Shown here piece after piece: positions 39,678-58,761 of a stretch of 64,000 bases of DNA. The first letter of the stretch is position 1; every line of letters begins with the position of its first letter. Source of the stretch: Gammaproteobacteria bacterium. GTDB lineage: Bacteria; Pseudomonadota; Gammaproteobacteria; Xanthomonadales; SZUA-36. The position numbers and the translations under genes were made by a program. The notes under the pieces were generated by a model. The model searched no databases, was not told the origin of the DNA, and saw nothing but the letters and a program-made list of their open reading frames with translations. The DNA lies in assembly GCA_030426265.1 (NCBI GenBank), contig JAUHYP010000002.1, positions 1-64,000 of the forward strand, written 5' to 3'.

Positions 39678-41336
39678 ATGAATCTCGAGCCCCAGACCCT
39701 CATCGCGCTGTTTGCCCTCGGCCTCCTGGCCCTGTCGCTCCCGAAGGCCTGGCGGCGACTGCAGTTGTCCCGCGCCAAGCATCCCTCCCTGGCGGGACAC
39801 GGGCGCATGTCGCGGCGACTGGCGCGCCTGGTGCCGTTCTACGAGTATCCCGAGAACCTCGCCTTCGGCGTCGACGGGGCGCCGGCGGACATCGTGGCTC
39901 GGCGACGTACCGCGTTCGATGCGTTGCGCGAAGAACTCCGCGTGAAATCTCCGAATACACGGGCGGCGATGGAACGGCTCGCCCCGGCCGTTTCCGACGT
40001 GCAGTTCACCCGCAACAACCGGGCGCCGTTCCAGTTCCGCAGCCTGGACGCCAGCCTGCCGTCCGGCGGCATGGCGGCGGAAACCCGCGGGCGCGAGATC
40101 GCCGATCTCGACGGCAACTGGTCGCTGGACCTCGGCGGCTCCTACGGCGTGGACCTGCTTGGCAGCGACTTCTACAAGGACTGCATCGACCGGGGCGTGG
40201 CGCGCGCCCGGGGCCTGGGGCCGGTGCTGGGGCCCTATCACCCGGTGGTGCCGGAAAACGTGGACCTGCTGCGCAAGGTGTCCGGCCTGGACGAGGTGTC
40301 CTTCCACATGTCCGGCACCGAGGCGGTGATGCAGGCCGTGCGCCTGGCCCGCTACCACACGGGCCGCTCCCAGCTGGTGATGTTCTGCGGCGCGTACCAC
40401 GGCTGGTGGGACGGCGTGCAGCCCGGCGTGGGCAACCGCCGCTCACCCAAGGACATCTTCATGCTCGAGGAGATGAGCAGGGACACGCTGCGCGTACTCG
40501 ACAGCCGCAAGGACATCGCCTGCGTGCTGGTCAACCCCCTGCAGGCGCTCACGCCCAACCGGGGCGCCGCCAGCGACGCCCTGCTGGTGGAGGGCCGCAA
40601 GGACGCCGCGCTCGACCGCGCGGCCTATGCCGACTGGCTACGGGAGCTGCGGGCCGTGTGCGACCGGCGGGGCATCGCCCTGATCCTGGACGAGGTGTTT
40701 CTCGGATTCCGCCTCGCGCCCGGGGGCGCCCAGGAGTTTTTCGGCGTTCGCGCCGACATGGTCACCTACGGCAAGACCCTGGGCGGCGGCCTGCCCGTGG
40801 GCGTGTTGTGTGGAGCAGCCCGGTGGATGCGGCGTTTCCGCGAGGACCGGCCCGGTGACATGTGCTTCGCACGCGGGACCTTCAATGCCCATCCCTACGT
40901 GATGACCTGCATGAACGAATTCCTGCGCCACGCCACGGGCCCGGCGTTCGCTGCCCAGTCGGCGGTCCAGGCGGAAACCTGGGACCGTCGCTTCGAGGGG
41001 CTCAACCGCCGCCTGGAAGAACACGGCCTGCCGCCGCGGCTGCGCAACCTGGTGTCGGTCGCCACGGTGACCTTCGAACGTGTCAGCCGATACCACTGGC
41101 TGTTGCAGCACTACCTGCGCGCCGAAGGGCTGTCGCTGTCCTGGGTAGGCACCGGTCGGTTCATTTTCAGCCACGACTGGACTGACGAGGATTTCGAGTC
41201 GTTCAGCCGCCGTTTCCTGGCCGCCGCCTCGCGCATGGAGGCCGACGGCTGGTGGTGGGACAGCGGTCGGTCGGCGAAGGAGGTGAAGCGCCAGGTGCTG
41301 AAGGAAGTGCTGGCGCGAAGGTTCGCCGGGGTCTGA
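39678..41336 (+). CDS. Membrane-anchored class III aminotransferase, GSA-aminomutase-like
   Basis: PLP enzyme of the glutamate-1-semialdehyde aminomutase-like class III group (552 residues, about 120 longer than HemL). It starts with a hydrophobic anchor (LIALFALGLLALSLP, 8-22). PLP-site motifs: MSGTEAVMQAVRLAR (211-225), AYHGWWDGVQPG (239-250), LILDEVFLGFR (335-345) and the Schiff-base Lys366 in VTYGKTLGGGLPVG. It is unlikely to be HemL, because of the anchor, extra N-terminal region (30-120) and lipid-gene surroundings. It may aminate or deaminate a membrane-associated aldehyde or ketone. An in-frame GTG at 39669 is a possible alternative start. Confidence 0.88.
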   Translation: MNLEPQTLIALFALGLLALSLPKAWRRLQLSRAKHPSLAGHGRMSRRLARLVPFYEYPENLAFGVDGAPADIVARRRTAFDALREELRVKSPNTRAAMERLAPAVSDVQFTRNNRAPFQFRSLDASLPSGGMAAETRGREIADLDGNWSLDLGGSYGVDLLGSDFYKDCIDRGVARARGLGPVLGPYHPVVPENVDLLRKVSGLDEVSFHMSGTEAVMQAVRLARYHTGRSQLVMFCGAYHGWWDGVQPGVGNRRSPKDIFMLEEMSRDTLRVLDSRKDIACVLVNPLQALTPNRGAASDALLVEGRKDAALDRAAYADWLRELRAVCDRRGIALILDEVFLGFRLAPGGAQEFFGVRADMVTYGKTLGGGLPVGVLCGAARWMRRFREDRPGDMCFARGTFNAHPYVMTCMNEFLRHATGPAFAAQSAVQAETWDRRFEGLNRRLEEHGLPPRLRNLVSVATVTFERVSRYHWLLQHYLRAEGLSLSWVGTGRFIFSHDWTDEDFESFSRRFLAAASRMEADGWWWDSGRSAKEVKRQVLKEVLARRFAGV

Positions 41337-41343
41337 AGGCGAA

Positions 41344-41367
41344 ACGCCCGGCGAGGGCGCCGGGCGT
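41344..41367. terminator. GC hairpin between convergent genes
   Basis: 10-bp perfect arms (ACGCCCGGCG / CGCCGGGCGT) with an AGGG loop lie just after the aminotransferase stop. A second inverted repeat (GGCTTCGA / TCGAAGCC, 41373-41380 and 41392-41399) follows up to the convergent stop. U-runs are poor, but the position suits a two-way transcription barrier. Confidence 0.55.
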
Positions 41368-41399
41368 CGTGGGGCTTCGAAGGCTTCCCGCTCGAAGCC

Positions 41400-42086
41400 T
41401 CAGCGGGTGACGGGGCTGGCCTCGGCGTCCGCCTCGTCCGGGTCGATGCCGTGGCGCACGTGGATCATCGGATCGATCAGTTCGCCGCGCAGCAGGTGGA
41501 TCGGCGACTTGCAGTAGATCCGGAAATCGTGGAACGGATCCGTCAGGATCTTGGTCGCCCACACCAGGCCGGTCTGCACGCTGTGGATGAAGAACAGCTG
41601 CACGGTACGGAAGGCGAGGGCGGCCCCGGCCAGCAGCAGCCACAGCAGGCTCAGGTTGTGCAGGTAGCCGTCGCGGTCCGAGTGCGGCTGCAGCAGTCCG
41701 AACAGGTCCGGTACGGTGTACAGCAGCACCGGTGTGAATCCCCAGATCGCCAGCAGCACGCGCTTGCGCACCAGGTTGTAGCCGATCTTGATGTCTTCCT
41801 TGTGATCGAAGCTGGCGCCGTTGACCTCGTCGAAGCCCTTGGGCTCGAAGAAGAAATGGCCGATCTGGCGTGACCACATGGCGAAGATCCAGCCCAGCAG
41901 CGCCGCCGCGCCCGGGTCCAGGAACAGCAGCGTGTACGTGGTCATGAAGCAGATCGAGCTGAACAGGTGCAGCGACTGGTTGATCCGGCTGTGGTGGTAG
42001 TAGCGGTGGTCGTCCCAGCGCTGTTGGCGCAGTTCTTCGCGAAAGGAAAGTTTCCGGGTGGTGCTTCGTTCTTCTCGTGCGGTCAT
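41400..42086 (-). CDS. Mpo1/DUF962-like membrane protein
   Basis: Polytopic membrane protein (228 residues). Residues 30-81 carry the pattern of the YGL010w/Mpo1 (DUF962) family: YHHSRINQSLH (HxxxxNxxxH) and WSRQIGHFFFE (QxGHxxxE). In yeast, Mpo1 is an Fe2+-dependent dioxygenase that alpha-oxidises 2-hydroxy fatty acids. The remainder is longer than usual and ends in an acidic tail. Assignment rests on these motifs and the hydrophobic pattern, with moderate confidence. It is the last gene of a minus-strand set after the acyltransferase and phosphatidylserine decarboxylase. The ATG at 42086 is preferred over a GTG seven codons upstream. Confidence 0.72.
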   Translation of the reverse strand: MTAREERSTTRKLSFREELRQQRWDDHRYYHHSRINQSLHLFSSICFMTTYTLLFLDPGAAALLGWIFAMWSRQIGHFFFEPKGFDEVNGASFDHKEDIKIGYNLVRKRVLLAIWGFTPVLLYTVPDLFGLLQPHSDRDGYLHNLSLLWLLLAGAALAFRTVQLFFIHSVQTGLVWATKILTDPFHDFRIYCKSPIHLLRGELIDPMIHVRHGIDPDEADAEASPVTR

Positions 42087-42240
42087 CGACCCATCCCCGT
42101 CAGGCACATTGCGACCAGCCTAAGGACCGATTGTTGCGGGGGCTTGACCGCTGGGTGTCCGTCACGGGTCAGTCGCGTGACAGTTCTGCGACGATCCCCT
42201 GCGAACGCGCGAGGTGGACGGACCGGGATTCCGCGTGCCT

Positions 42241-43194
42241 TCAGAGCCGTTGCAGGAGGGCCTGGCCCATGCGGACGGTGTCGCCCTGCCGCCATCCTTC
42301 GCACAGGGTGGCGCCCCGCGGCGCCAGAACCACCAGGGTCGAGCCATGCTGGAACCAGCCCATCTCCTCGCCGCGGGTGTAATCCCGGTCGAGGTCGATC
42401 AGCGTGGGGCCGCCCCAGTCGAGGTCCAGGGGGTGCTCGAGGCCGTGGATGCCGACGCTGGCCACCAGCACGGCGGCCACCGCCACCAGGGTCAGAGGGG
42501 GGCCGTCATCGGCGGGTTGGAACGGAAACACCACCCGCTCGTTGCGGCAGAACAGGCGCTCGACCACTTTCAGGGCCACCGGGTTCACGTTCCAGGTGTC
42601 GCCCGAGAGATAGCGGATGCGCCCGACGCGACCGTCGGTCGGGGCGTGGAAGCGGTGGTACATGCTCGATTTGAGCCGCAGCGTGAGGTAGAAGCCGCCG
42701 CGATGGCGTTCGGCGGCCTCCGGGTCACCCAGCAGTTCGTCGATGCCATAGGGAAAGCCCTTCGCCTGCAGCGCCGCCAGGCCGTCCAGTTCGCCATGGG
42801 CGCCGATGATGGCGTCGCAGGGACTGGTGAACACCTCCGGCCGTGGGTCCACCGGGCGGGCGCCGGGCCTCAGGCGCCGGGTGAAGCACTGCTGCAGGCT
42901 GGCAAACCGGGTCTGCTCGGCCTCGAACAGGCGCAGGTCGTCGACGAAGCATTGCCACAGGCCGATGCTCGCCTTCGCCAGCAGCCGGTTTTCGATGCGG
43001 CTGAACCAGCCCATGAAGCGGGTGGCCGCCTGCCGCGGGATGCGGTTGGTGAGCAGGAAATTGAGGCGCTCCGCGGCGCTGAGTTCCCCCAGCGGGCGCA
43101 GTCCGTGAGCCGGTGCTGTCTTCGATGCGGCGTTCAGTGCGCCTGTCGTGTCCACGCGGGTGTGTCCGGCCGATGCTTGATTGCCGACCACCAT
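42241..43194 (-). CDS. psd: Phosphatidylserine decarboxylase proenzyme
   Basis: Pyruvoyl-dependent membrane enzyme (317 residues) that makes phosphatidylethanolamine. Landmarks: RIPRQAATRFMGWFSRIE near the N-terminus, FTSPCDAIIGAHGELDG (Asp and His of the self-cleavage triad), MYHRFHAPTDGRV, GDTWNVNP, and the processing site WFQHGSTLVVLAP, where the Ser of GST becomes the pyruvoyl group. The family usually has LGST or FGST; QHGST is a small variation. The ATG at 43194 follows GAGG at a good distance; an in-frame ATG lies at 43242. It sits 90 bp downstream of the acyltransferase gene on the same strand. Confidence 0.94.
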   Translation of the reverse strand: MVVGNQASAGHTRVDTTGALNAASKTAPAHGLRPLGELSAAERLNFLLTNRIPRQAATRFMGWFSRIENRLLAKASIGLWQCFVDDLRLFEAEQTRFASLQQCFTRRLRPGARPVDPRPEVFTSPCDAIIGAHGELDGLAALQAKGFPYGIDELLGDPEAAERHRGGFYLTLRLKSSMYHRFHAPTDGRVGRIRYLSGDTWNVNPVALKVVERLFCRNERVVFPFQPADDGPPLTLVAVAAVLVASVGIHGLEHPLDLDWGGPTLIDLDRDYTRGEEMGWFQHGSTLVVLAPRGATLCEGWRQGDTVRMGQALLQRL

Positions 43195-43284
43195 TCCACA
43201 GCCTCGTGACAGATTCGTTTCACGCCCGGGGTGGGGCGGCATGGCGTCAGCCTGGAAGGGTGGGCCCCCAGGGGAACCCGGGGT

Positions 43285-44058
43285 TCAGGCGGGCCGGGTG
43301 TCGAAGTAGGCCTTCGCCTGCCGGTCGGCGTCCTTCAGCCGTTGTTCCAGTTCCAGCCGGATGGGCTCCAGCTCGTCGATGGGGGTGCCTTCCGGGACGC
43401 GCAGCGGCTCACCGACGACGATGACGATGCGGGAGAAGGGCCGGGGCACCATGAAGCGGTCCCAGCTGTTCCACAGCAGCGCCGAACTGGCGCCGCAGGC
43501 CACCGGGACCATGGCCGTGGCGGTCAGCCGGGCGAGCAGCACGGCGCCGATCTTCACCACTTCCGCCGGGCCCTTGGGACCGTCGACGGTGATCACCGGG
43601 GACACGCCTTCCTTGCGGACGGTCAGGTACATGTCGCGCAGGGCCTGCCCGCCGGTGCGGGTGGGGGAACCGCGCACCACCGCCGCGCCCCAGGAGCGCG
43701 CCATGGCCGCGGGCACCTCGCCGCTCACCGAGGGGCTGATCAGGAAACCGACGTTCAGGCCGCCTTCCTTCAGTTCCAGCATGTAGCGGGTGCAGAACAG
43801 GTGCATCTGGTGCCAGTAGCAGGGAATGATGGGTTCGCCGGCGGCCAGCGCCGCGTCCATGTGCTCGGCGCCGATCACCTTCTCAACGCGGCAGGTGGAC
43901 CACAGCGACTTGACCAGCACCTTGGCCAGCGCCACCAGGAAGGCGTACCAGACCTTGCGTCCGGCGGACATGCGCCGGCGCGAGGTCGCTTCCTCGCCGG
44001 TGGTCCGCGAGCGCTGGGCCTTCTGGCTTGGCGCGTAGCTGCGTTGTGGGTCGGTCAT
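43285..44058 (-). CDS. Lysophospholipid acyltransferase-like protein (DUF374)
   Basis: Acyltransferase-fold protein of the DUF374 group (257 residues). The start MTDPQRSYAPSQKAQR gives a basic N-terminus and one weak membrane segment (VWYAFLVALAKVLVKSLW). Core motifs: IIPCYWHQMHLFCTRYM, SVSGEVPAAMARSWGAAVVRG, SPTRTGGQALRDM and TVDGPKGPAEVVKIGAVLLAR, as in DUF374 acyltransferases, which transfer fatty acids from acyl-ACP or CoA onto lipids. It is the first gene of the minus-strand trio with psd and the Mpo1-like gene, and is transcribed divergently from the P450/FAAL-ACP pair. Confidence 0.9.
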   Translation of the reverse strand: MTDPQRSYAPSQKAQRSRTTGEEATSRRRMSAGRKVWYAFLVALAKVLVKSLWSTCRVEKVIGAEHMDAALAAGEPIIPCYWHQMHLFCTRYMLELKEGGLNVGFLISPSVSGEVPAAMARSWGAAVVRGSPTRTGGQALRDMYLTVRKEGVSPVITVDGPKGPAEVVKIGAVLLARLTATAMVPVACGASSALLWNSWDRFMVPRPFSRIVIVVGEPLRVPEGTPIDELEPIRLELEQRLKDADRQAKAYFDTRPA

Positions 44059-44124
44059 GGGCCCTGGGTCGGCTGCCGGCGGCCGGTGGCCACCTCCTGG
44101 GGCGAAGGGTACACCATTGAGGGT

Positions 44125-44194
44125 TGGGCATTGGCGCCCGGGCATTGCACCCCGGGCATCGTCCGCCGGGCATTGCGCCAACGGCATTCCATGG
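44125..44194. repeat. Tandem 14-bp imperfect repeats in a divergent promoter
   Basis: Four contiguous 14-bp units begin at 44125, 44139, 44153 and 44167, with a decayed fifth at 44181. The second reads CGGGCATTGCACCC; the core [C/T]GGGCAT[T/C]G is kept in units 1-4. They fill the region between the acyltransferase and P450 genes, ending 22 bp before a TATAAT. Phasing is exact, with no spacers. Confidence 0.75.
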
Positions 44195-44216
44195 CCGGTC
44201 CCGCCCGGCTCCGGTG

Positions 44217-44222
44217 TATAAT
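44217..44222 (+). promoter_or_regulatory. Candidate -10 box for the P450/FAAL operon
   Basis: A perfect TATAAT in otherwise GC-rich DNA, 52 bp before the P450 ATG. No good TTGACA lies 16-18 bp upstream; that space is occupied by the end of the 14-bp repeat array, so activator-dependent use is possible. Confidence 0.5.
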
Positions 44223-44274
44223 TCGCCGCTTGTATCACGCGGCCCCGTGGGGCCCCGGCGGCAAGCGCGACCCC

Positions 44275-45591
44275 ATGAGCCAGACCCCCCAGACCACGCC
44301 CACAGCACCCGGACCGGTGGACCCCCACCCCCTGGACTGCGACGAGGCCACTTTTCACCTGATTCCGCGCCTCGTGGCGGAACATGGCGAAGTGGTGCGC
44401 GTGGCCGCGCCCAACCTGGACCGGCCCACCTGGGTGATCGCCGACCCGGCCGACATCCGGCGGGTGCTGGTGAGCAACCATCGCAACTACGTCAAGGGCG
44501 TGGGCTTCGAGCGCGTGGAGATGCTGCTGGGCAACGGCATCATCGTCAGCGACGGCGCCTTCTGGCGCCGGCAGCGCACCATGATCCAGCCGGCCTTCAG
44601 CCGCGGCAACATGCCGCGTTTCTTCGATATGGTGCGCGAGGTGACCCTGCGCCTGAAGGAAGAATGGCTGGCCGCGGCCCGCGAGGGTGGGGAAATCGAC
44701 ATCACCCGGGCGACCAGCGACTACGCGCTGGAAATCATCCTGCGACTGATCTTCAGCGACGACCTGGAGTTCTTTGTCGACCAGGAAGGCATCAACCCCT
44801 TCCTGTTCCTGACCGAGGATCCCTCGCGGGACCTGCGGGTGGCCATGAAATTCCGCCAGTTGCTCAAGCAGGTCCGGGTGCTGATCGAACGACGCCGCGA
44901 GACCGGCGAGCGACCGTTCGACCTCTTGTCCATGATGATGGACGCCCGCGCCAGCCGCACCGAGGAAGCCATGAGCGACAAGGAGCTCGTCGACGAGGTC
45001 GCCACGCTGATCATCGCCGGACACGAGACCTCCGCCGGCACGCTGAACTGGGCCTGGACGCTCTTGTCCGGCGACGAGGACAGCGCCCGGGCCCTGCGCG
45101 AGGAATCGCGACGCGTCTGCCCCGACGGCGAGCTCACCTACGAGCACCTGGAAGAACTGGTCTTCACCCGCCAGGTGCTGGATGAAACCCTGCGCCTCTA
45201 TCCCCCGGTCTGGCTGTTCACCCGCCGTGCGGTCGAGGCCGACGAACTCGGCGGCCATGCCATCGAGGCCGGGGACAACGTGTTCCTGTCGCCCTGGCTC
45301 ACCCAGCGGCTCGAGCGCCTCTGGCCGGAGCCGGACGCCTTCCGGCCGGAACGCTTCGCGCCGGGCCGGGACGAGGCACGCGAGGACCAGGCCTTCTTTC
45401 CCTTCTCCGCCGGGCCGCGCCGTTGCATCGGCGAATTCTTCTCCTACGTGGAAATGCGGACCCACCTGGCCTTGCTGGCCCCGGTGTTCCGCCTGCGGCT
45501 CGTGCCCGGGCAGGACATCGCGCTGGAGCCGGCCATCAACCTGCGCACGAAACACAACCTGCGCATGACCGTGGAGGCCCTGCAGCCATGA
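44275..45591 (+). CDS. Cytochrome P450
   Basis: Soluble bacterial P450 (438 residues), predicted to hydroxylate or further oxidise a fatty-chain substrate. All hallmarks are present: I-helix IIAGHETSAGT (246-256), ExxR as ETLR (304-307) and the heme loop FSAGPRRCIGEFF with ligand Cys384. Sequence style is nearer to fatty-acid-hydroxylating classes (CYP102/CYP4-like) than to CYP107 macrolide oxidases. Electron partners are not encoded nearby. The stop overlaps the ATG of the acyl-AMP ligase-ACP gene (ATGA), so the two proteins are probably made together and the substrate may be the ACP-bound acyl chain. Confidence 0.94.
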   Translation: MSQTPQTTPTAPGPVDPHPLDCDEATFHLIPRLVAEHGEVVRVAAPNLDRPTWVIADPADIRRVLVSNHRNYVKGVGFERVEMLLGNGIIVSDGAFWRRQRTMIQPAFSRGNMPRFFDMVREVTLRLKEEWLAAAREGGEIDITRATSDYALEIILRLIFSDDLEFFVDQEGINPFLFLTEDPSRDLRVAMKFRQLLKQVRVLIERRRETGERPFDLLSMMMDARASRTEEAMSDKELVDEVATLIIAGHETSAGTLNWAWTLLSGDEDSARALREESRRVCPDGELTYEHLEELVFTRQVLDETLRLYPPVWLFTRRAVEADELGGHAIEAGDNVFLSPWLTQRLERLWPEPDAFRPERFAPGRDEAREDQAFFPFSAGPRRCIGEFFSYVEMRTHLALLAPVFRLRLVPGQDIALEPAINLRTKHNLRMTVEALQP

Positions 45592-47555
45592 GCCCGGCAA
45601 AGGACACCCTGGGCGGCCTGCTGTCCGCCGCCATCGCCCGTGGACCGCGTTCGGTGACCTTCATCGAGGGCGCGCAGGAAGAAGTCCGCGTTTCCTACGA
45701 CGACCTCCGCGCCCGCGCCCTGGGCGTGCTGCGTCACTTCCAGGCCGCCGGCCTGGAGCCGGGCGACGAACTGATCCTGTTCACCAACAGCAACGAGCAG
45801 TTCGTCGACGCCTTCTGGGCCTGCATCCTCGGCGGTATCGTGCCGGTACCCGTGGCCGTGGGCATCAGCGACGACCACCGCGCCAAGCTGCTGCGGATCT
45901 TCGCCTCGCTGCGCAATCCCTGGCTGTACACGGAGCGCAACCTCGCACGGCGCCTGGAGCGCTTCGGGGAAGGTCATGACCGCCTGGCCGAGATTGCCCG
46001 CCTGCTCGAGCGAACCCTGGTGGTGGACGACATCGAGGACATCGGCACCCCTGGCCGGGTGCATGCCGCGGCGCCGGACGACGTGGCCTTCATCCAGTTT
46101 TCCTCCGGCTCCACCAGCGAGCCCAAGGGCGTGGTGCTGACCCACCGCAACGTGATCACCAACATCCGCGCCATCTGCGAGGGTTACGGCAGCCGCGACG
46201 ACGACGTCGCCGTCAGCTGGATGCCGCTGACCCACGACATGGGCCTGATCGGTTTCCACCTGTGCATGATCGCGGCCAACAACGACCACCACGTCATGGC
46301 CACGAGCCTGTTCGTCCGGCGTCCCCTGTTGTGGATGCAGAAGGCGGCTGAGAAGGGTGCGACCCTGACGTGCTCGCCCAACTTCGGCTACAAGCACTTC
46401 CTCAAGGTGTTCGAGTCGAAGGGATTGGACGGCATCGACCTGGGCCGCGTGCGCCTGGTGTTCAACGGGGCCGAGCCCATCTCCGCCGCGCTCGCGCGGC
46501 AGTTCCTGGAAGCGCTCGCACCCCACGGCCTGGACCCGGACTGCATGTTTCCGGTCTACGGTCTCGCCGAGGCCAGCCTGGGCGTGACCTTCCCCGAGCC
46601 CGGGGCGCCCCTGCGCACCGTGATGGCCCATCGCCACGGCCTGGCCGTCGGGGAACCCTGGTCGCCCGCCGAAGGCGACGACCAGGATGCCGTGGAGTTC
46701 GTCCTGCTCGGCACGCCGATCCGCGACTGCCAGGTCCGGCTCTGCGACGACCAGGACCACGTCCTGGAGGAAGGGCGGGTCGGCCACGTGCAGATCCGCG
46801 GCGGCAACGTCACGCGGGGCTATTACGGCTACCGCGGCAGGAGCCGGGATGTGTTCGCCGACCTCGACTGGCTGCGGACCGGCGACCTGGGCTTCTTCCA
46901 CGAAGGCCAGCTGGTGATCACCGGTCGCTCCAAGGACATCATTTTCGTCAACGGCCAGAACTACTACCCCCACGACATCGAGGCCTTGGCCGGGGAGCTC
47001 GACGGGCTGGAACTGGGCAAGGTCGTGGCCGCCGGCGTCACCAGCCCTGAAGCGGGCACGGACGAACTGCTGCTGTTCGTGCTCGACCGCGGGGACGTCG
47101 CCACCTTCGCGGACCTCGCGCGCCGCCTGCGGGCCCACGTGGGCGAGACCACGGGCCTGGAAGTCGGCCAGGTCATCCCGGTGACGCGCATTCCCAAGAC
47201 CACCAGCGGCAAGGTGCAGCGGCACAAGCTGACGGAGGCCTACCTGGACGGGGAGTACGCCCCGGTACTGGCCGAACTCGCGGCCCTGGAGACGGTGACC
47301 GAGGAAGACCCGGTCCCGGCCGGCGGCATGGAGCAGGCTCTGGCGCAGATCTGCAACAGCATCGTGGTCGACCGCCCGGTCGGCCTGGACGACAACCTGT
47401 TCGAGATCGGCATCAGCTCGCTGGCCCTGGCGCAGATCCACGCCCGCGTGGACGAGCTGTACCCCGGTGAAATGGACATTGCCGACGTGTTCGAGTACCC
47501 GACCATCCGCGAGCTGGCCGCCTTCCTGGAAGCGCGGCGCGCCGGCGGCGCCTGA
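45588..47555 (+). CDS. Fatty acyl-AMP ligase fused to acyl carrier protein
   Basis: Two-domain protein (655 residues). Residues 1-570 are an adenylate-forming FAAL: AFIQFSSGSTSEPKGVVLTH, SWMPLTHDMGLIGFHL, VFNGAEPI, YGLAEASLGVTFP and TGDLGFFHEGQLVITGRSKD. The FAAL-type wording (HDMGLIG, NGQNYYPHDIE) distinguishes it from CoA ligases. Residues 581-655 are a carrier domain with phosphopantetheine Ser611 in FEIGISSLALAQ. It should activate a free fatty acid as acyl-AMP and load it on its own ACP. With the overlapping P450, a FAAL to ACP to P450 relay is likely, comparable in logic to BioI acting on acyl-ACP. No PKS or NRPS is present. Confidence 0.94.
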   Translation: MSPAKDTLGGLLSAAIARGPRSVTFIEGAQEEVRVSYDDLRARALGVLRHFQAAGLEPGDELILFTNSNEQFVDAFWACILGGIVPVPVAVGISDDHRAKLLRIFASLRNPWLYTERNLARRLERFGEGHDRLAEIARLLERTLVVDDIEDIGTPGRVHAAAPDDVAFIQFSSGSTSEPKGVVLTHRNVITNIRAICEGYGSRDDDVAVSWMPLTHDMGLIGFHLCMIAANNDHHVMATSLFVRRPLLWMQKAAEKGATLTCSPNFGYKHFLKVFESKGLDGIDLGRVRLVFNGAEPISAALARQFLEALAPHGLDPDCMFPVYGLAEASLGVTFPEPGAPLRTVMAHRHGLAVGEPWSPAEGDDQDAVEFVLLGTPIRDCQVRLCDDQDHVLEEGRVGHVQIRGGNVTRGYYGYRGRSRDVFADLDWLRTGDLGFFHEGQLVITGRSKDIIFVNGQNYYPHDIEALAGELDGLELGKVVAAGVTSPEAGTDELLLFVLDRGDVATFADLARRLRAHVGETTGLEVGQVIPVTRIPKTTSGKVQRHKLTEAYLDGEYAPVLAELAALETVTEEDPVPAGGMEQALAQICNSIVVDRPVGLDDNLFEIGISSLALAQIHARVDELYPGEMDIADVFEYPTIRELAAFLEARRAGGA

Positions 47556-50502: not shown

Positions 50503-51264
50503 TCAGAGCAGGTCGTCGATGTTCATGACGACGGTCGAGCCGTCGCCGATGTCTCCGCAGGCCACGTAGATCAGGGTGACATTGTCCGGCGCGCCGCGGA
50601 CCAGGGCCGTGTGCAACAGGGACTGGACGACTTCCTCGCTGTCGCTGTTGTTCATCATTTCGTCGATTTCCCGGTCCTCGACCAGCCGCGTCAGCCCGTC
50701 GGAGCACAGCAGAAACTGGTCGCCGTCCAGGACCTGGAAGGTGCGGGTGTCGATTTCCAGGGGAACGTCGATGCCGACGGCCCGGGTGATCACGTTCGAC
50801 ATGGGGTGTTTTTCCGCCTCTTCCGGGCGAATCAGGTGGTTGTCGAGCAGTTCCTGGACATGGCTGTGGTCGCGCGTGAGCTGCTCGAAGGTGTCGGACC
50901 GCCGCCGGTAGATACGGCTGTCGCCGGCCCAGACCACGGCGCCCTGGCCGTCCTGGATCAGCAGCGCGACGATGGTGCTCCCCGGTTGGCGGTCGCGGCT
51001 GAACCGCTCCGCATCGTTCACCAGGGCCTCGTTCACGTCGAGGATGTGTTGCTGTAGGTGCTCCAGTGACGCCTCGAAACTGTCGGAGCGTGACATGCGC
51101 CCCACTTCGCCGACGACGGCCTGGCTGGCCACCTCTCCGGACTCGTGGCCGCCCATGCCGTCGGCGACCACCCAGACACCTTCCTCGCCGAGGTCGAGAA
51201 AGGAGTCCTCATTGAGTTCTCGCACCATGCCGACGTGGGTCGCGGCCTTTGAAAGGATGTTCAT
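50503..51264 (-). CDS. pppA: PP2C-type phosphatase of the type VI secretion locus
   Basis: PP2C Ser/Thr phosphatase (253 residues). Metal-binding motifs: VRELNEDSFLDL, VVADGMGGHESGEVAS, VWAGDSRIYRR, LLCSDGLTRLVEDREI and GAPDNVTLIYV. In type VI systems PppA removes phosphate from the FHA protein and opposes the PpkA kinase. The gene is last in the minus-strand T6SS operon, 19 bp after tagF, and is probably co-transcribed. I start at ATG 51264 (MNILSKAATHVG); an upstream in-frame start has no sequence support. No kinase is encoded in the window. Confidence 0.92.
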   Translation of the reverse strand: MNILSKAATHVGMVRELNEDSFLDLGEEGVWVVADGMGGHESGEVASQAVVGEVGRMSRSDSFEASLEHLQQHILDVNEALVNDAERFSRDRQPGSTIVALLIQDGQGAVVWAGDSRIYRRRSDTFEQLTRDHSHVQELLDNHLIRPEEAEKHPMSNVITRAVGIDVPLEIDTRTFQVLDGDQFLLCSDGLTRLVEDREIDEMMNNSDSEEVVQSLLHTALVRGAPDNVTLIYVACGDIGDGSTVVMNIDDLL

Positions 51265-51283
51265 GGACCGACTCTCCGCGCGA

Positions 51284-52033
51284 TCATTGGGACAGGAACT
51301 CGTCGAGGACATCGTCGCCCTCGCTCTTGGGGTCTTCAGCGTCCGTGCTGACCATCATGTCGAGGAACAGGGACGTGGCCGGCAGGTGACGGCAGCACAG
51401 CAGCTGTGGGCCCACCTGGTTGGATCCGTCCTGCAACCACAGGCCGTAGCTGCCTTCCCGTCCCTCCTGGACCAGGGCATGCAGCAGTGCGTCGAGGCGG
51501 CCGGTGGCCGTGTCGGCGCCGGTGAACGCCAGGCGCATCCAGTCGTCGCCGCGTTCCAGCGTACCGGGTGAACGCAGGCCCTCGACCTCCGGTGTCGGCA
51601 GTTCATTGAGCGATTGGTCGATGCGGTCCTGGTCCCATTCGTCGCCCAGGGCCGTCAGCGCCAGGTCCTCAAGGTCACCCAGCCAGGCGTGGTGCCGGGC
51701 CAGGAAGAGGGCGGGAGAAGTCCCCGCCGGCAGCAGCGCGGCCAGGGTGAAGTTGAAGTAACGCCCCACCTTGTCGACGCTGGGAATGGTCACCCCCGCC
51801 ACGGCCTGTTCCCCACAGATGCCATTCCCCAGGACGAAGGTCCAGGCGGGGCAGCTGAGATAGAAGGTCAGCCACTCCTGCGGAAGGCGTTCCTTGGCGG
51901 CGGCGATGCCGGCCTGCAACCAGTCGTCCCAGGGCGCGGTGAAATCGCGCGGCAGGCGCTTCTGGATGAAGTCCCCGTAGGCCGGCAGCTTGCCGTAGAA
52001 CCCCGGGTCGGAGACGCGGTCGAGTTCGCTCAC
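51284..52033 (-). CDS. tagF: Type VI secretion accessory protein TagF
   Basis: TagF-family protein (249 residues) with the family opening DPGFYGKLPAYGDFIQKRLP, then WDDWLQAGIAAAKERLP, WTFVLGNGICGEQAVAGV and VGRYFNFTL. TagF represses T6SS assembly post-translationally in Pseudomonas, acting on the FHA protein. It overlaps the tssM stop by 4 bp and is followed by pppA, so the regulatory proteins are made with the membrane complex. No fused PppA domain is present; the phosphatase is a separate protein. Confidence 0.94.
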   Translation of the reverse strand: MSELDRVSDPGFYGKLPAYGDFIQKRLPRDFTAPWDDWLQAGIAAAKERLPQEWLTFYLSCPAWTFVLGNGICGEQAVAGVTIPSVDKVGRYFNFTLAALLPAGTSPALFLARHHAWLGDLEDLALTALGDEWDQDRIDQSLNELPTPEVEGLRSPGTLERGDDWMRLAFTGADTATGRLDALLHALVQEGREGSYGLWLQDGSNQVGPQLLCCRHLPATSLFLDMMVSTDAEDPKSEGDDVLDEFLSQ

Positions 52034-55000
52034 AGCTGGTCCGGGCAGCGGAAGCTGCGCAGGTCGCGCAGGTCGAAGGGGTTGAAGGCGCTCGCGGCGC
52101 GGATCTCGTACTCCGCCCAGCGCTCGTCCAGTTCGAACCGCACCTGGAAGGCTTCCGAGTTGCCCGAGGCCTGCAGCCCCGAGCGGTCGAACATGCGGAA
52201 CAGGGACCAGGGGCCGGTTTCCGAATTGCCCGAGCGGCCCGCGCTGCTCGCCGGCACGAACTGGTAACCCACCATGCCCTGGACGGCGTCACCCGGCCAG
52301 CGGAAGGTCTTGGCGATGATGGGGCCGTGGCTGTAGCTGGTGCTCTCGCCATTGATGCTGAGCGTGAAGTTCGTGGCGGCCGCATCCAGGCGTACCGGGC
52401 GCATCTCGAAGGTGACCGAGGGCAGGGCGCCACCGCCGGAGAAGAAGGCCCGCTGGATGTTCTTCGCCTGCTGCATGTAGCGCAGCGAAGACGGGTTGAT
52501 GCGGACCGTGTTGGCGTACGCCGGGCGCAACGCCCAGGTCGGCCGGGTGGTGTCCACCACCTGGGCCAGGTACTTGTTGAAGAAGGTGTCGAGAATGCCC
52601 GAGTTCGGCGCGAAGAAGGTGCCGAAATCGTACAGCGGCACGGCCTGCGTGCTGTCGCGATTGAAGGGGTACCGGCCATTGATGGCCTGGCGGCAGAACG
52701 GCGCCACCTCCGCGGACCAGGCGGCCTGGATGGCCGTGGACGCGTCCCCGGCGATCAGGTTGTCGCTCTGCGAGACCACGTCCAGCACCCAGTCCCGGAT
52801 GGGCGCCGGCGTGCGCTGCCCCCGCTGGCGCACTGCCGTGAGGGCGGAACTCGCCTCGTTCTGCATGTCGCTGATGAGCGCGTCGGCCGAGGCCCGTGAC
52901 AGGGTCTCGATGTAGCGGTACAGGTTGTCCAGGTCCGCGATCAGCGTGTCCAGCGGCGAGGGCCTGCCGTCGTCGGCGCCCCCGGCGAGTTGATGCACGC
53001 CGGCGAAGCTCCGGTCCACCATGGCCGGGTCCACGAGGTCGGGGTTGGTGCCCTGGCTGCGCAGGATGGCTTCGAACTTCTCGCGCAGGGAGGCGTCCTC
53101 CTGGGCGCCACGTATGACCTCCTCGGGCGTGAGGCGGGTGGCGTTGGACACGTTCACCAGCAACTGCCGCAGTGGCGAGGCATCGCCGGAGAGCACCAGC
53201 AGGATGCTGGCGGCCTGTTCCATGCCGCTGAACGGCCGGATGCGCACGTCTTCCAGGAAATCGATCCAGCTGCGAACGTAGTCCTCGAGGTAGGCCAGCC
53301 GGATCCCGTTGATCAGGTCCGTTTCCGAGACCTGCACGGCGTCCGTGGCCTCCGTGGCGAAGATCCAGGCCTCGTCCTCGACCTGCTCGATGGCGTCCTC
53401 TTCCGCCGGCAGGTACATCTCCTGGTAGCCCAGGGGCGAGAAGAACGCGGGCACGCCGCTGTTGAAGGGCGCGCCGCTGGAGCGGGTGAACACCAGGGGG
53501 CCGTCGGGGCCGGTCATGGTGCCGAGAGAGTAGGTTTCGCCCTCGTCGATGTGCTCGCTCTTGATGACGGAGTAGATGCGCTGGGCCAGGGTGGTCCGGC
53601 CGAGCACGATGCGCGCGCTGGTCACCAGGTTGCGGTCCAGGTCGAAGGGCGGTGACAGGGGCTGCAGGTCGAGCAGGGCGTCGAGATGCCCCTTCAGCTC
53701 GTCCAGTTGCTCGTTGGTCATGACGCGGGCCAGGTCCCTGTCCCAGTCGGCCGTGACGACCTCGCGGACGTAGTCCTCGTCCAGGCGGTCGGGCGTGCCC
53801 AGCATCAGGTAGGCCTTCAGCAGTTCGTAGACCCGGTTCGGGTCGTTCATGCTCGCGTTCAGGTCCTGCTCCATGCCGATCATGAGTCGGGGCAGGAACG
53901 CCTGTTCGAGGATGCGCTTGTAGGCCGGAATGGTGCCGTTCTCACCCAGCCGGTCCCCCTGGTACAGGCCCCAGCGCATGCGCAGGGGCGGGGACTCAAA
54001 GCTCGCCTCGTAGCCCACGGGCAGCGCCCGGGCCTCGTTGAGCAGGGGCAGGATGCCGCGCATGGAGGCATCGCTGGGCTTGACGTCGTCGATGGTCTCG
54101 CGGATTTCCACGGCGGACTGGTCGACATCGGCGATCAGGCCCTTGTTGGCGCCATGGCTGATCCACCAGGCGATGTTCAGCAGGATGGGGACGGCGATCA
54201 GCGCCGCCCAGCCGGCCTTGCGCGCAATGCCGTACATGCGCTCGACCTTCAGGTTCGCGCCGGCCAGGCCCGATTCGCCGAAGATCACCTTCATCATCAG
54301 GTCCTGGATGAAGAAGGCCTTGCCCTTGGAGGGCATGGACTGCGTGGCCGAGCGGCTCAGGCTGAAGTTGCTGGCCAGCTGGCTCATGATCCGGTTGAAG
54401 GGCGTGCCCTCCTGGGTGCCGCTGGTGAAGTACACGCCGCGAAGCAGGGGCGTGGTCTTGAAGCGGCTGGGTTTGAACACCTGGCCCAGGAACTGCTCGA
54501 TGGCTTCGCGGGAAGAGGCCATCTGCAGGGGGAAGTTGTAGATCAGCTCGCGGCGCTGGACGTCGCGCTCCTCCTGGAGGCGCTGCACCAGCCGTTCCTC
54601 CATGCGCTGCTGCAGCGCGGAGAATTCGCCGTCGAAGGCCTTCAGCGGGTCCTCGTCGAGCCCGAGGGTGAAGCCCCAGACCTGCGCCCGCTCATTGCGG
54701 TCCAGGTCGCCGTAGAACTCCATGAAGCCGGCCAGCAGGTCGGACTTCGTGAACATCAGGTAGATCGGGAACCGCACCCCCAGCTGATCGTAGAGCTCCT
54801 GGATTCGGTCGCTGATGGCCTTGGCCGTGCGCTCCTTGTCGCGCTCGCTCTGGCGCAGCAGCTCTTCCGTGCTGATGGCCAGGATGATGCCGTTGATGGG
54901 CCGCCGCGCGCGGTGCTTCTTGAGCAGCTTGAGGAAGCCCAGCCAGGCCGAGTTGTCGACATCCTGGTTGCTGTCCTGGGTGGTGTAGCGGCCGGCCGTG

Positions 55001-55551
55001 TCGATCAGCACCGCCTCGTCGGTGAACCACCAGTCGCAGTAACGCGTACCGCCCACGCCCTGGACCTTCTGGTCGCCCAGGCTTTCGGCCAGCGGGAACT
55101 GGAGGCCGGAATTGACCAGCACGGTGGTCTTTCCGGACCCCGGGGGACCGATGATGATGTACCAGGGCAGCTGGTAGATGGACTTGATCTTCTTGCCGCC
55201 GACCTCGCTTTTCTTCAGGACGGACAGGGCCTCGTCGAAGCGGCCCTTGAGTTCGGCCATTTCCTCGGCGGACTGCTCGGCCGTGGGGTCCGCGGCCGCG
55301 GCGCCCTTGGCCAGGTCCTTGGAGATCGCCTCGGACTTCTTGCGGTTGCGCCAGGCCTTGAACCCGCGAACCAGGAAATAGCCGAGGATCAGGACGACGA
55401 TCACGATGATCCGGTTCACCGGCGGCCCTAGTGGGTCAAAGCTGCCGAAGCGGATCAGCGGCCCGTAGTACCAGACCATGATCGCCAGGGCGCCCACGGC
55501 CAGCCCGGAGAACACGCCATAGGTGATCAGCATGGACATGAGGGGCCCCAT
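52030..55551 (-). CDS. tssM: Type VI secretion membrane complex protein TssM (IcmF)
   Basis: Large inner-membrane scaffold (1173 residues). Two N-terminal TM helices (about 8-28 and 46-63), a cytoplasmic NTPase-like domain with Walker A GPPGSGKTTV (135-144) and DTAGRYT (184-190), a third TM near 437-455, then a long periplasmic region ending in FNPFDLRDLRSFRCPDQL that binds TssJ. Walker A is intact, which not all TssM proteins keep. The ATG at 55551 overlaps the tssL stop (TGATG). TssM with TssJ and TssL forms the trans-envelope channel that anchors the baseplate. Confidence 0.96.
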   Translation of the reverse strand: MGPLMSMLITYGVFSGLAVGALAIMVWYYGPLIRFGSFDPLGPPVNRIIVIVVLILGYFLVRGFKAWRNRKKSEAISKDLAKGAAAADPTAEQSAEEMAELKGRFDEALSVLKKSEVGGKKIKSIYQLPWYIIIGPPGSGKTTVLVNSGLQFPLAESLGDQKVQGVGGTRYCDWWFTDEAVLIDTAGRYTTQDSNQDVDNSAWLGFLKLLKKHRARRPINGIILAISTEELLRQSERDKERTAKAISDRIQELYDQLGVRFPIYLMFTKSDLLAGFMEFYGDLDRNERAQVWGFTLGLDEDPLKAFDGEFSALQQRMEERLVQRLQEERDVQRRELIYNFPLQMASSREAIEQFLGQVFKPSRFKTTPLLRGVYFTSGTQEGTPFNRIMSQLASNFSLSRSATQSMPSKGKAFFIQDLMMKVIFGESGLAGANLKVERMYGIARKAGWAALIAVPILLNIAWWISHGANKGLIADVDQSAVEIRETIDDVKPSDASMRGILPLLNEARALPVGYEASFESPPLRMRWGLYQGDRLGENGTIPAYKRILEQAFLPRLMIGMEQDLNASMNDPNRVYELLKAYLMLGTPDRLDEDYVREVVTADWDRDLARVMTNEQLDELKGHLDALLDLQPLSPPFDLDRNLVTSARIVLGRTTLAQRIYSVIKSEHIDEGETYSLGTMTGPDGPLVFTRSSGAPFNSGVPAFFSPLGYQEMYLPAEEDAIEQVEDEAWIFATEATDAVQVSETDLINGIRLAYLEDYVRSWIDFLEDVRIRPFSGMEQAASILLVLSGDASPLRQLLVNVSNATRLTPEEVIRGAQEDASLREKFEAILRSQGTNPDLVDPAMVDRSFAGVHQLAGGADDGRPSPLDTLIADLDNLYRYIETLSRASADALISDMQNEASSALTAVRQRGQRTPAPIRDWVLDVVSQSDNLIAGDASTAIQAAWSAEVAPFCRQAINGRYPFNRDSTQAVPLYDFGTFFAPNSGILDTFFNKYLAQVVDTTRPTWALRPAYANTVRINPSSLRYMQQAKNIQRAFFSGGGALPSVTFEMRPVRLDAAATNFTLSINGESTSYSHGPIIAKTFRWPGDAVQGMVGYQFVPASSAGRSGNSETGPWSLFRMFDRSGLQASGNSEAFQVRFELDERWAEYEIRAASAFNPFDLRDLRSFRCPDQL

Positions 55552-56900
55552 CAGCCTGCCCCCCCGGCGCGCTGCATCACGACCACTTCGACCCGTCGGT
55601 TCTGGGCCCGGCCCTCACGCGTGTCGTTGCTGGCGATGGGCTGCGTTTCGCCGAGCCCTTCGGCAACGGTTCGCGCCGGGTCGAGCATCTGTTCATGGAT
55701 CACGGTCACCACCGATTCCGCCCTTGCCTGGGACAGTTCGAAGTTGGAGGGAAAACGCCCGCTGGCGCGCATGGGGACGTTGTCTGAGTGGCCGACGATC
55801 CGGACACGGCCCGTGGTCTGCTCCAGTCCCTCGCCGATGCGACGCAGGATGGGCAGGTACTCCGACTTGATCCGTTCACTGCCGGACTCGAACAGGCCAT
55901 CGCCCTTGATCGACACCACCATGCGGTCGGGGAACTCGTCCACGCTGACCTTGCCGGCCTGGATCTCGGGCGCCAGGAAACGCGCCAGGGAGAAGCGTGG
56001 TGGTTCGGGGTCGGGAATGTTCATCACCGGCTCGGGCGCCAGGATGTGGTTGGGGATGAGGCCGGCCTCGCGGCCGATGCCCATCACTTCGGCGTGCACC
56101 GGGTCGGCATGGCCGCTGAGACTGAAGCGCCAGAGACTGAACAGACCCACCAGCAGCAGGATCGCGATACAGGCGGCCAGCCACGCGGGCACCAGGGGCC
56201 CCCGCGCCGTGGCGTGCTTGTCCAGTCCTTCCCAATGCGGCGACAGGCCCGTCTCGTACTCGCCGCGGTGGTTGCGGATGACGTGGTAGAGATTTTCCCG
56301 GACGCGTTCCAGCTCATTGATCCCGTCATTGGATACCGCGTAGCGGCCCCGAAAACCGAGGGCGAGACAGAGGTAGAACAGTTCCAGGAGGTCGAGATTG
56401 CGGGCCGCGTCCTGCTCCAGCTTGTTCAGGAGCCGGAAGAATTTCTCACCGCCGAAGGTTTCCTTGTGAAACAGGCTCAGCAGGCTCTGGCGTGACCAGT
56501 TGCTCTGGGCGCCCCAGGGGGTGGCCATCACGAATTCGTCGATGGTCGAACACAGGGCGTAACGTGCGATATAAATGGTTTCCGGCGGAATGCCCTCGGC
56601 CTGGGCGCGCCGTTCGAACTGGGTGATTTCACCGGCGAGCTGCTGGTGCAGTCCTTCCGGGTTGGGGTGCGTCGGCGTGTTGCGAATCTGGCTGAGCAGG
56701 TTGAGCAGGATGGCCGCGGAACGCTCCAGGGGGTTCAGGCCCTGGCGGCCTTTCAGTTCGACCCGGCCGCGCGGTGTCGAGGGCGGCGGCGGCGCCCCGC
56801 CGCCGGGGGGTGGGGCGGTCGGCCGGCGCCCCCCGGGACTGGGCTTGATGATGGTCTTTTCTTCGTCTGGATCGAAGAACGGGTCGTCGTGTTCAGCCAT
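55551..56900 (-). CDS. tssL: Type VI secretion protein TssL with OmpA-like domain
   Basis: DotU-family inner-membrane protein (449 residues) with a C-terminal OmpA/peptidoglycan-binding domain. After a Pro/Gly-rich start (PSPGGRRPTAPPPGGGAP) comes the cytoplasmic DotU helical domain (about 50-215; AEGIPPETIYIARYALCSTIDE, PWGAQSNWSRQSLL), a TM helix (about 230-250), and OmpA residues 330-445 with FESGSERIKSEYLP, VGHSDNVPM, LSQARAESVV and RAQNRRVEV. The last carries the peptidoglycan-binding Asp/Arg pair. The fusion anchors the complex to the cell wall without a separate TagL. Confidence 0.96.
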   Translation of the reverse strand: MAEHDDPFFDPDEEKTIIKPSPGGRRPTAPPPGGGAPPPPSTPRGRVELKGRQGLNPLERSAAILLNLLSQIRNTPTHPNPEGLHQQLAGEITQFERRAQAEGIPPETIYIARYALCSTIDEFVMATPWGAQSNWSRQSLLSLFHKETFGGEKFFRLLNKLEQDAARNLDLLELFYLCLALGFRGRYAVSNDGINELERVRENLYHVIRNHRGEYETGLSPHWEGLDKHATARGPLVPAWLAACIAILLLVGLFSLWRFSLSGHADPVHAEVMGIGREAGLIPNHILAPEPVMNIPDPEPPRFSLARFLAPEIQAGKVSVDEFPDRMVVSIKGDGLFESGSERIKSEYLPILRRIGEGLEQTTGRVRIVGHSDNVPMRASGRFPSNFELSQARAESVVTVIHEQMLDPARTVAEGLGETQPIASNDTREGRAQNRRVEVVVMQRAGGAG

Positions 56901-56905
56901 GATGC

Positions 56906-58240
56906 CTAGCCCCTGATGGCCCAGAGTTCGAGCTCGAGGTCCGGAAACTTGCCCGGGTGCAGACCGAGACCGCCCGAGGTGGGCAGCTCACGCCACAGCT
57001 CGGCCGTCCGGTCCAGGCGGAAATAGTTGAACCCGGAATGGAAGGGAATTTCCCGCGGCGCCACCGGCAGGGACTCGAGCCCGATGCCCGGCAACTGCGA
57101 GGTGATCAGCGTCTTCATCTTTTCCTTCGGCCCGATCTTCGCCTGGCGCGGGAACTGCGAGCGCAGCGTTTCGGAAGGCATCGCCGCCTTGACCGCGAGC
57201 ACGAAATCCGCGTTCTCGAACAGGCCCTTGTCGTTCACCACCGCGAGGTGGATGCCGACCTTGGTGTATTCCTTCAGCACCAGCTGTTCGGCGCTGGACT
57301 CGATGATGTGGCCGAGGAGGTTGCGAAGCTCGTGCATGAGCGGCGTGAAGCCCGCGGCGATGTCCGTGTGCACGTAGTCCGGCAGGTTCTTGGGCCGCTT
57401 GCCCTCGTCCAGGAAGGTCGCCAGTTCACCGGCCAGCATGAGGCAGACCTGGAACAACGACTCGGGGTGGTAGTGCGGCAGGGACGCCAGGTGGGCGAAC
57501 AGCGGCTCGTAGCGGTTCACCACCTGCAGGATGAGGTAATCCTGGACCTGGGGCGTGCCGCCCCGGCCTTCGGCGGCCAGGCGCGCTGCGATTTCCTCCG
57601 CGCGGTGCTTGAGCAGCCCCTGCAGTTCCTTGATGTATCCGTTGAGCGTGACCTCGTTGCGGCAGTCCATGCAGGTGGGGATGTACTCGGCGTCCATCAC
57701 CAGTTGCTGGTCGGCGCGCACCTCCACCAGTCGCCCGATGGGAATGCAGGCGAACTCCTCCCGTTCGTCGTGCTCGCCGAGCAGCCGCAGTCGCGGCCGC
57801 GCCAGTTCGATGGGCGCGACGCTGTCCTCGGGCAGGCTGGTGTCACGCACGTCGGAAATCTGGACGCCGAAGCGGGTCTCTTCCCGGTCGCTTTCCTCCC
57901 GGCTCGATTCGGTGGCGTTGGGCCGCCGTTCCAGCAGGCAGAGGTAGACGTTCTCGTTCTTGAGATTCTTGTCCGGCACCATGGGCGGCGGCGCCGCGTC
58001 GGCTCCGGGGATCACGACCGCGGTCCCGTCGGGCATGACGGCCCGGCAGGAAGCGATCTCGATTTTCCCCAGGCTCAGGGCCTCCTGGCTGAGTGTCAGT
58101 TCAACCACGCCCCAGGCGTACGGACGCAGGGGCGCGGTGCGATTCTCCAGCAGGGCCTCGAAGTAGCGGTCGTTCTGCTGGAAATGCTGGGGTCGGAGAA
58201 ACATGCCCTCCGACCAGATGATCTTGGATGTCCAGGACAT
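56906..58240 (-). CDS. tssK: Type VI secretion baseplate protein TssK
   Basis: TssK (444 residues), the trimeric adaptor joining the baseplate to the TssJLM membrane complex. The family opening IIWSEGMFLRPQHFQQNDRY and the interior AGFTPLMHELRNLLG and FNYFRLDRTAELW are clear. It lies 13 bp after tssJ and 5 bp before tssL in the same operon. Confidence 0.97.
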   Translation of the reverse strand: MSWTSKIIWSEGMFLRPQHFQQNDRYFEALLENRTAPLRPYAWGVVELTLSQEALSLGKIEIASCRAVMPDGTAVVIPGADAAPPPMVPDKNLKNENVYLCLLERRPNATESSREESDREETRFGVQISDVRDTSLPEDSVAPIELARPRLRLLGEHDEREEFACIPIGRLVEVRADQQLVMDAEYIPTCMDCRNEVTLNGYIKELQGLLKHRAEEIAARLAAEGRGGTPQVQDYLILQVVNRYEPLFAHLASLPHYHPESLFQVCLMLAGELATFLDEGKRPKNLPDYVHTDIAAGFTPLMHELRNLLGHIIESSAEQLVLKEYTKVGIHLAVVNDKGLFENADFVLAVKAAMPSETLRSQFPRQAKIGPKEKMKTLITSQLPGIGLESLPVAPREIPFHSGFNYFRLDRTAELWRELPTSGGLGLHPGKFPDLELELWAIRG

Positions 58241-58253
58241 GTCGCCCCGCCGT

Positions 58254-58748: not shown

Positions 58749-58761
58749 CGTGGTCTACTCC

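Follow-up and report, generated by a model that had tools for sequence, protein, structure and literature searches.

In Escherichia coli, Aas is both an acyl-acyl carrier protein (acyl-ACP) synthetase and a 2-acyl-glycerophosphoethanolamine acyltransferase, while in yeast, Mpo1 is a 2-hydroxy-palmitic acid dioxygenase. LpxJ-type members of the DUF374 family are lipid A acyltransferases without the HX4D/E motif (PMC6148475), and fatty acyl-AMP ligases (FAALs) fused to an ACP are known from the HapA, NocH and AmbG didomains of natural-product clusters (PMC11837247) and from bacillomycin-type synthases. At low phosphate, PlcP and Agt rebuild membranes, often under the control of Pho boxes (PMC4796936, PMC9239053, PMC8528852). 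Here we analyse a 64,000-nucleotide stretch, referred to as the window (contig JAUHYP010000002.1 of assembly GCA_030426265.1), from a gammaproteobacterium of the Xanthomonadales lineage SZUA-36 whose genome is a 3.6 Mb draft assembly. Six genes at 39678-47555 encode a class III aminotransferase dependent on pyridoxal phosphate (PLP), an Mpo1/DUF962-like membrane protein, a phosphatidylserine (PS) decarboxylase (psd), a DUF374 acyltransferase, a cytochrome P450 and a FAAL-ACP fusion.

The preliminary description of this DNA, made from the sequence alone, tentatively joined the six genes, psd with reservation, in one possible undescribed lipid-tailoring locus. Our interpretation, to which we give a probability of about 0.6, is that the locus consists of two lipid modules that abut within a single genus: module B (acyltransferase, P450 and FAAL-ACP), an Aas-like set for loading, oxidising and transferring an acyl chain, and module A (aminotransferase, Mpo1-like protein and psd), a set for amine-lipid remodelling in phosphate starvation.

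Like Aas, module B would spend ATP to load a free fatty acid onto ACP and couple this to transfer to a membrane lipid by an enzyme of the lysophospholipid acyltransferase (LPLAT) fold; unlike in Aas, the FAAL carries its own ACP domain, the acyltransferase is a separate DUF374 protein that lacks HX4D, the P450 is optional and a phosphopantetheinyl transferase (PPTase) often accompanies the set. By analogy, the best reading is that it may work like a split, P450-equipped Aas. Its acyltransferase shares with LpxJ the DUF374 family, an LPLAT fold near LpxM and PatA, a conserved His and Asp and the absence of HX4D, but is tied to FAAL-ACP and P450 in a host that retains LpxL/LpxM-family genes. The two-domain architecture and the FAAL type are those of the didomains named above and of the bacillomycin-type synthases, whereas no polyketide synthase (PKS) or non-ribosomal peptide synthetase (NRPS) follows, and the constant neighbours are a membrane-type acyltransferase and a P450. 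Module A resembles PlcP-Agt remodelling in that its loci often carry an agt-like glycosyltransferase of family GT4 along with Pho-box-like sites, and in some cases plcP or btaA; it differs in adding amination, Mpo1-like and decarboxylase genes, and the words "aminotransferase" and "decarboxylase" are absent from the main text of PMC4796936, PMC9239053 and PMC8528852. The model of the Mpo1 family, PF06127, matched 24 of 24 orthologues of the Mpo1-like protein, but with scores around or under its cut-off, and the constant partners here are the aminotransferase and psd.

Two gene sets with separate inheritance

All six genes are intact within the 8 kb, with open reading frames and Pfam profile matches for each, just as the preliminary description had it. 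Loci with the FAAL-ACP didomain were collected in two samples. The named sample consisted of 80 loci with relatives at 49-67% identity, mostly from gammaproteobacterial metagenome-assembled genomes, and came to 83 loci (FAAL identity 49-78%) when congeners were added, two entries being the same contig. The class-wide sample was picked blind to neighbourhood, and the didomain was found in 22 of 368 other gammaproteobacterial genomes. The acyltransferase lay near FAAL-ACP in 73/83 loci and the P450 in 70/83, and the class sample gave 18/22 and 17/22, respectively. The aminotransferase, Mpo1-like and psd genes were near FAAL-ACP in only one of the 83 loci, that of congener G002, and in none of the 22 class-sampled loci. 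Among 36 relatives, the acyltransferase was present in congeners G002 and G003, in both with the FAAL, and the sole further match was distant (34%). The congener at locus L043 is a Lysobacterales metagenome assembly.

Seen from the other side, aminotransferase orthologues occurred in 8 of 273 other genomes of the class and 24 of 397 other genomes of the phylum, spread over many families. We fetched 27 loci with such an orthologue from Pseudomonadota, and close to the aminotransferase there was an Mpo1-like gene in 25, while psd and a lipid GT4 glycosyltransferase or glycosyltransferase fusion were each present in 23. A PmtA-like methyltransferase gene stood at 10 of the 27 loci, plcP at four and btaA at one. 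Both loci without the Mpo1-like gene, and three of the four without psd, lie at a contig end on that side. FAAL, P450 and DUF374 genes were near module A at none of the 27 loci. The psd gene, which the preliminary description allowed might be only a neighbour, is thus a regular companion of the aminotransferase and the Mpo1-like gene.

The congeners carry the same separation into a single site. In G003, the acyltransferase adjoins the DUF4212 gene with no module A between them, that is, module B without module A at the same site, while in the window and in G002 an A block of about 3.7 kb sits exactly between DUF4212 and the acyltransferase. This indicates that module A is a unit that can be present or absent on its own. 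Genomes G144 and G297 hold both modules, unlinked.

A single pathway would have FAAL-ACP activate and hold the chain, the P450 oxidise it, the aminotransferase aminate it, the acyltransferase transfer it and the Mpo1-like protein shorten it. Two species have all six genes side by side, the nearest solved relative of the aminotransferase is a mycosubtilin synthase domain, and the FAAL resembles the FAAL-ACP loading domains of bacillomycin-type synthases, with 39-48% identity. Outside the genus, however, the A genes were at 0/22 and 0/79 other B loci and the B genes at 0/27 A loci; G003 lacks module A at the shared site; and the upstream sites differ, being Pho-box-like for A with none for B. 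We rejected the single pathway on this synteny in both directions, B loci without A and A loci without B, and consider it very improbable. The neighbourhood search thus upheld part of the preliminary description: lipid tailoring is well supported as the theme of the locus, and the P450, FAAL-ACP and acyltransferase form a recurring set, but the six-gene neighbourhood is not conserved beyond the genus, and the placing of the aminotransferase and the Mpo1-like protein in the FAAL pathway is not supported.

The six genes are flanked on the left by genes for an ActP-type symporter and DUF4212 and on the right by those for an S9-type peptidase and NnrU. Further along the window, at 50503-60474 on the minus strand, is an ordinary type VI secretion cluster with genes for a PP2C phosphatase, TagF, IcmF/TssM, DotU-OmpA, VasE/TssK and an FHA protein.

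The FAAL-ACP, P450 and acyltransferase set

The FAAL-ACP fusion (45588..47555, plus strand; 655 aa) matches PF00501 AMP-binding at 3e-48 and PF00550 PP-binding at 1e-10, and its start overlaps the stop of the P450 gene (ATGA). Its best PDB matches are FAAL-type domains (6ulw, McyG, 3pbk; 4e-92 to 1e-71), compared with about 1e-27 for CoA ligases, and its best NCBIfam match is the PRK09192 fatty acyl-AMP ligase, under the cut-off of that model. In the carrier domain, G608, S610 and S611 (GxSS, the region of the phosphopantetheine serine) are invariant in 80 sequences, and the invariant residues of all three module B proteins are those to be expected if the enzymes are active. The P450 (44275..45591, plus strand; 438 aa; PF00067, E 5e-70) has the haem cysteine C384, E304/R307 (ExxR) and A248-G249-x-E251-T252 (AGxET of the I-helix) invariant in 66 sequences, and its PDB matches include BM3 and CYP4-type P450s. 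The acyltransferase (43285..44058, minus strand; PF04028, E 9e-15) is encoded divergently across an intergenic region (44059..44274) in which no Pho-box-like site was found, the best being 8/14, and this divergence recurs in most loci. The DUF374 model PF04028 matched all 42 aligned orthologues as well as the protein encoded here, and Y-W-H89 and D165-G-P-x-G-P are invariant; in the alignment without RT0047, no Asp or Glu stands at the HX4D/E spacing from H89. While a sequence search of the PDB with the acyltransferase gave chance matches only, its AlphaFold model (pLDDT 89) matches LpxM, PlsC, GPAT and PatA in fold.

The arrangement varies in ways that bear on what is essential. At L190, L191 and L198 the acyltransferase is on the opposite side of the FAAL, from which we conclude that the set survives rearrangement. 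About ten named loci have no P450, only the acyltransferase and FAAL, and at L100:9680-9990 a decayed P450 that has lost its haem cysteine region lies between an intact acyltransferase and FAAL-ACP; this loss and decay argues that the tie between FAAL and acyltransferase is the core and that the P450 is an optional modifier. PPTase genes, which are present in the host genome, lie near FAAL-ACP in 7/22 class-sampled loci clearly and in 2/22 weakly, stand between the acyltransferase and the P450 in some module B loci, and adjoin P450-FAAL-ACP on pDCB2, a conjugative Diaphorobacter plasmid, all of which fits a functional ACP.

Judged by these families and residues, module B probably loads a fatty acid, oxidises it and esterifies it to a membrane lipid: the FAAL would adenylate a free fatty acid and load the acyl group onto its own fused ACP, and the P450 would, as an optional step, oxidise the chain while it is tethered there. 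Transfer of the chain from the ACP onto a membrane-lipid acceptor would fall to the DUF374 acyltransferase. It is from gene content and family that we infer the substrates, the products, the direction of acyl flow and the order of steps, here as in module A.

Lipid A is a possible acceptor. In its full form, this alternative has module B modify lipid A, the DUF374 protein acting as an LpxJ and attaching a secondary acyl chain hydroxylated by the P450. DUF374 is indeed the LpxJ family (PMC6148475), the fold matches LpxM, and the host genome has one DUF374 gene only. The same fold is shared by glycerolipid acyltransferases, however; known late acyltransferases use ordinary acyl-ACP, which would make a dedicated FAAL-ACP unusual; and LpxL/LpxM-family genes, two strong and one weak, are already present in the host, so that we regard the proposal as doubtful. 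The idea that the DUF374 protein takes the place of an absent LpxM was rejected, since three PF03279 matches in the host genome are above cut-off.

Alternatively, module B could make a small secreted natural product, with the acyltransferase releasing it. FAAL-ACP didomains are known mainly as PKS/NRPS loading modules (PMC11837247), and PPTases of the Sfp/AcpT kind recur. Yet the window locus has no PKS or NRPS, as had been noted before, no ketosynthase or NRPS recurs near module B save a FabH-like ketoacyl-ACP synthase III (KASIII) in some lineages, and the constant partner is an acyltransferase with a membrane-lipid fold. We therefore think this improbable, more so than a role in lipid A modification, and retain the load, oxidise and esterify reading of module B.

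Two partners of the set were examined and set aside. The KASIII gene lies directly 3' of FAAL-ACP in many Woeseiaceae-type loci (e.g., L051:11926-12891), but it was present in 42 named loci and in 1/22 class-sampled ones, and hence is lineage-specific rather than part of the core. A sphingoid-base-type enzyme was considered as a common partner and dropped, since the class I/II aminotransferase of pDCB2 is unmatched in other module B loci. The pDCB2 region itself (L209, 42959-56872 of a conjugative IncP plasmid) carries the PPTase, P450 and FAAL-ACP beside a second FAAL and an ACP, together with the class I/II PLP enzyme, a CDP-alcohol phosphatidyltransferase and nucleotidyltransferases, and looks like a mobile lipid-headgroup locus.

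The aminotransferase, Mpo1-like and psd set

The aminotransferase (39678..41336, plus strand; 552 aa; PF00202 Aminotran_3, E 1e-26) has a single N-terminal hydrophobic stretch at residues ~7-25, the putative membrane anchor. YGK366 and D338 are invariant in 30 orthologues, K366 being the PLP lysine. Among solved structures, the aminotransferase comes closest to the mycosubtilin synthase domain 6kfm (E 9e-47), compared with 6e-31 for glutamate-1-semialdehyde (GSA) aminomutase. The mycosubtilin synthase aminotransferase domain works on a carrier-bound acyl chain. The linkage to a ketosynthase or carrier protein typical of MycA-type acyl-carrier beta-aminotransferases was not seen: the 27 orthologous aminotransferase loci have no FAAL-ACP, and the genus of the window is the only one in which the two are linked. 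The Mpo1-like gene (41400..42086, minus strand, with an alternative GTG start at 42107) encodes a protein that scores 24.2 bits against PF06127 with the ATG start and 23.8 with the longer one, against a curated cut-off of 24.0, and two orthologues scored singly reach 19.7 and 20.6. The family has more than 50 invariant positions, with many His, Asp and Glu residues among them, including H27, H31, H40, H77 and E81; a fold search of the PDB with the AlphaFold model (pLDDT 83) gave no match and was uninformative. The psd gene (42241..43242, minus strand; PF02666, E 1e-50), whose true start may be the ATG at 43194, is a second copy, a better-scoring psd being present on contig C51 of the same genome. 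Its processing site, H299-G300-S301-T302, is invariant in 27 sequences.

Several A loci have further content. A plasmid of Sphingomonas parapaucimobilis is a named example, with asd, the aminotransferase, a hypothetical (Mpo1-like) gene and a methyltransferase. At L136:11844-14549 and in its relatives L149, L154, L157 and L162-L164, a protein of ~900 aa is encoded inside module A, with a C-terminal GT4 domain and a His-rich N-terminal half that has no Pfam match and is PHP-like by eye. The divergent locus L141:6463-13530 also has btaA (DUF3419), a methyltransferase, plcP and agt, a link to betaine-lipid synthesis.

The evidence for phosphate control comes from the upstream regions and from the gene neighbours. 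We scored 200 bases 5' of each gene against CTGTCATNNNNCTGTCAT, counting at least 11/14 matches as a site and reducing a heavily sampled genus to one representative. Pho-box-like sites were found 5' of 9/23 Mpo1-like genes, compared with 1/86 controls from the same loci (Fisher 1.7e-6), and dinucleotide shuffles concur (p <=0.05 in 10/27). The aminotransferase (4/25, Fisher 0.009) and psd (3/21, 0.02) were also enriched over the same controls, though these two counts are not independent, as divergent genes can share one site. In G002 the site upstream of the Mpo1-like gene reaches 11/14 (p 0.016). The host genome has an unlinked plcP-agt operon on contig C98 at ~155.5-157.5 kb (L206:8040-9977), as does G002 (L207), and the region 5' of plcP has a tandem Pho box of four 7-mers spaced at 11 bases, ending in CTGTCAT. 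A search for Agt homologues in G003, where module A is missing from the locus, gave none. These upstream sites, together with the plcP, agt and btaA genes near module A and the unlinked plcP-agt operons, suggest that module A is probably Pho-regulated and would work alongside PlcP-Agt lipid remodelling in phosphate starvation.

As to what module A makes, we can propose with low confidence, from enzyme families, that its substrate is a lipid or glycolipid, with oxidation falling to the Mpo1-like protein and amination to the aminotransferase, and that an amino-acid-type headgroup loses its carboxyl group through the second PS decarboxylase, giving an amine-bearing surrogate lipid. A simpler possibility is that the module just raises the supply of phosphatidylethanolamine (PE) or phosphatidylcholine (PC) through psd and PmtA, with the aminotransferase and Mpo1-like protein acting separately, e.g., in fatty-acid alpha-oxidation. 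By family, psd and the PmtA-like protein are phospholipid enzymes, and Pfam describes Mpo1 as a 2-hydroxy-fatty-acid dioxygenase. Set against this, a housekeeping psd exists elsewhere in the host genome, the GT4, plcP and btaA neighbours and the Pho-box-like sites suggest phosphorus saving, and the aminotransferase and Mpo1-like genes pair more constantly with each other than PmtA does with them. We consider the PE/PC supply unlikely, though worth keeping in mind, and prefer amine-lipid remodelling at low phosphate as the role of module A.

A number of observations weigh against our reading of two modules and their roles. The best solved relative of the aminotransferase acts on acyl carriers, which would fit a linkage to FAAL-ACP. 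The acyltransferase, psd and Mpo1-like genes are on one strand in the window with short gaps, and co-transcription of both modules in this genus is possible. The window's own Pho-box-like direct repeat 5' of the Mpo1-like gene (42166..42194, minus strand; TCGTCGC-CTGTCAC-CTGACCC, 11-base spacing) is weak, with 10/14 matches and a shuffle p of 0.08, and plcP is linked to module A in only the four loci counted above. In module B, oxidation by the P450 before transfer is not distinguishable from oxidation after it.

Novelty and meaning for membrane biology

Neither module is described in the searchable literature, the coverage of which is incomplete, with most subscription journals outside it, and we regard the novelty of both as provisional. 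At its most speculative, and quite tentatively, the proposal can be extended into two schemes. In module A, PlcP would free diacylglycerol, Agt would glycosylate it, and the Mpo1-like oxidase and the membrane-anchored aminotransferase would convert the glycolipid into a phosphorus-free, amine-bearing lipid that substitutes for PE, while a repurposed PS decarboxylase would act on an amino-acid lipid. Module B would be an undescribed membrane-lipid pathway in which a carrier-bound fatty acid is oxidised before it is esterified.

One 8 kb stretch thus yields two recurring lipid gene sets. If our interpretation is true, module B would give FAAL-ACP a role in membrane lipids, not in natural products, with a P450 acting on the carrier-bound chain, and module A would connect three enzymes, a PLP aminotransferase, an Mpo1-like oxidase and a second PS decarboxylase, with the rebuilding of membranes to save phosphate across Pseudomonadota. 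The reading of module A predicts that an amine-bearing lipid would appear at low phosphate.

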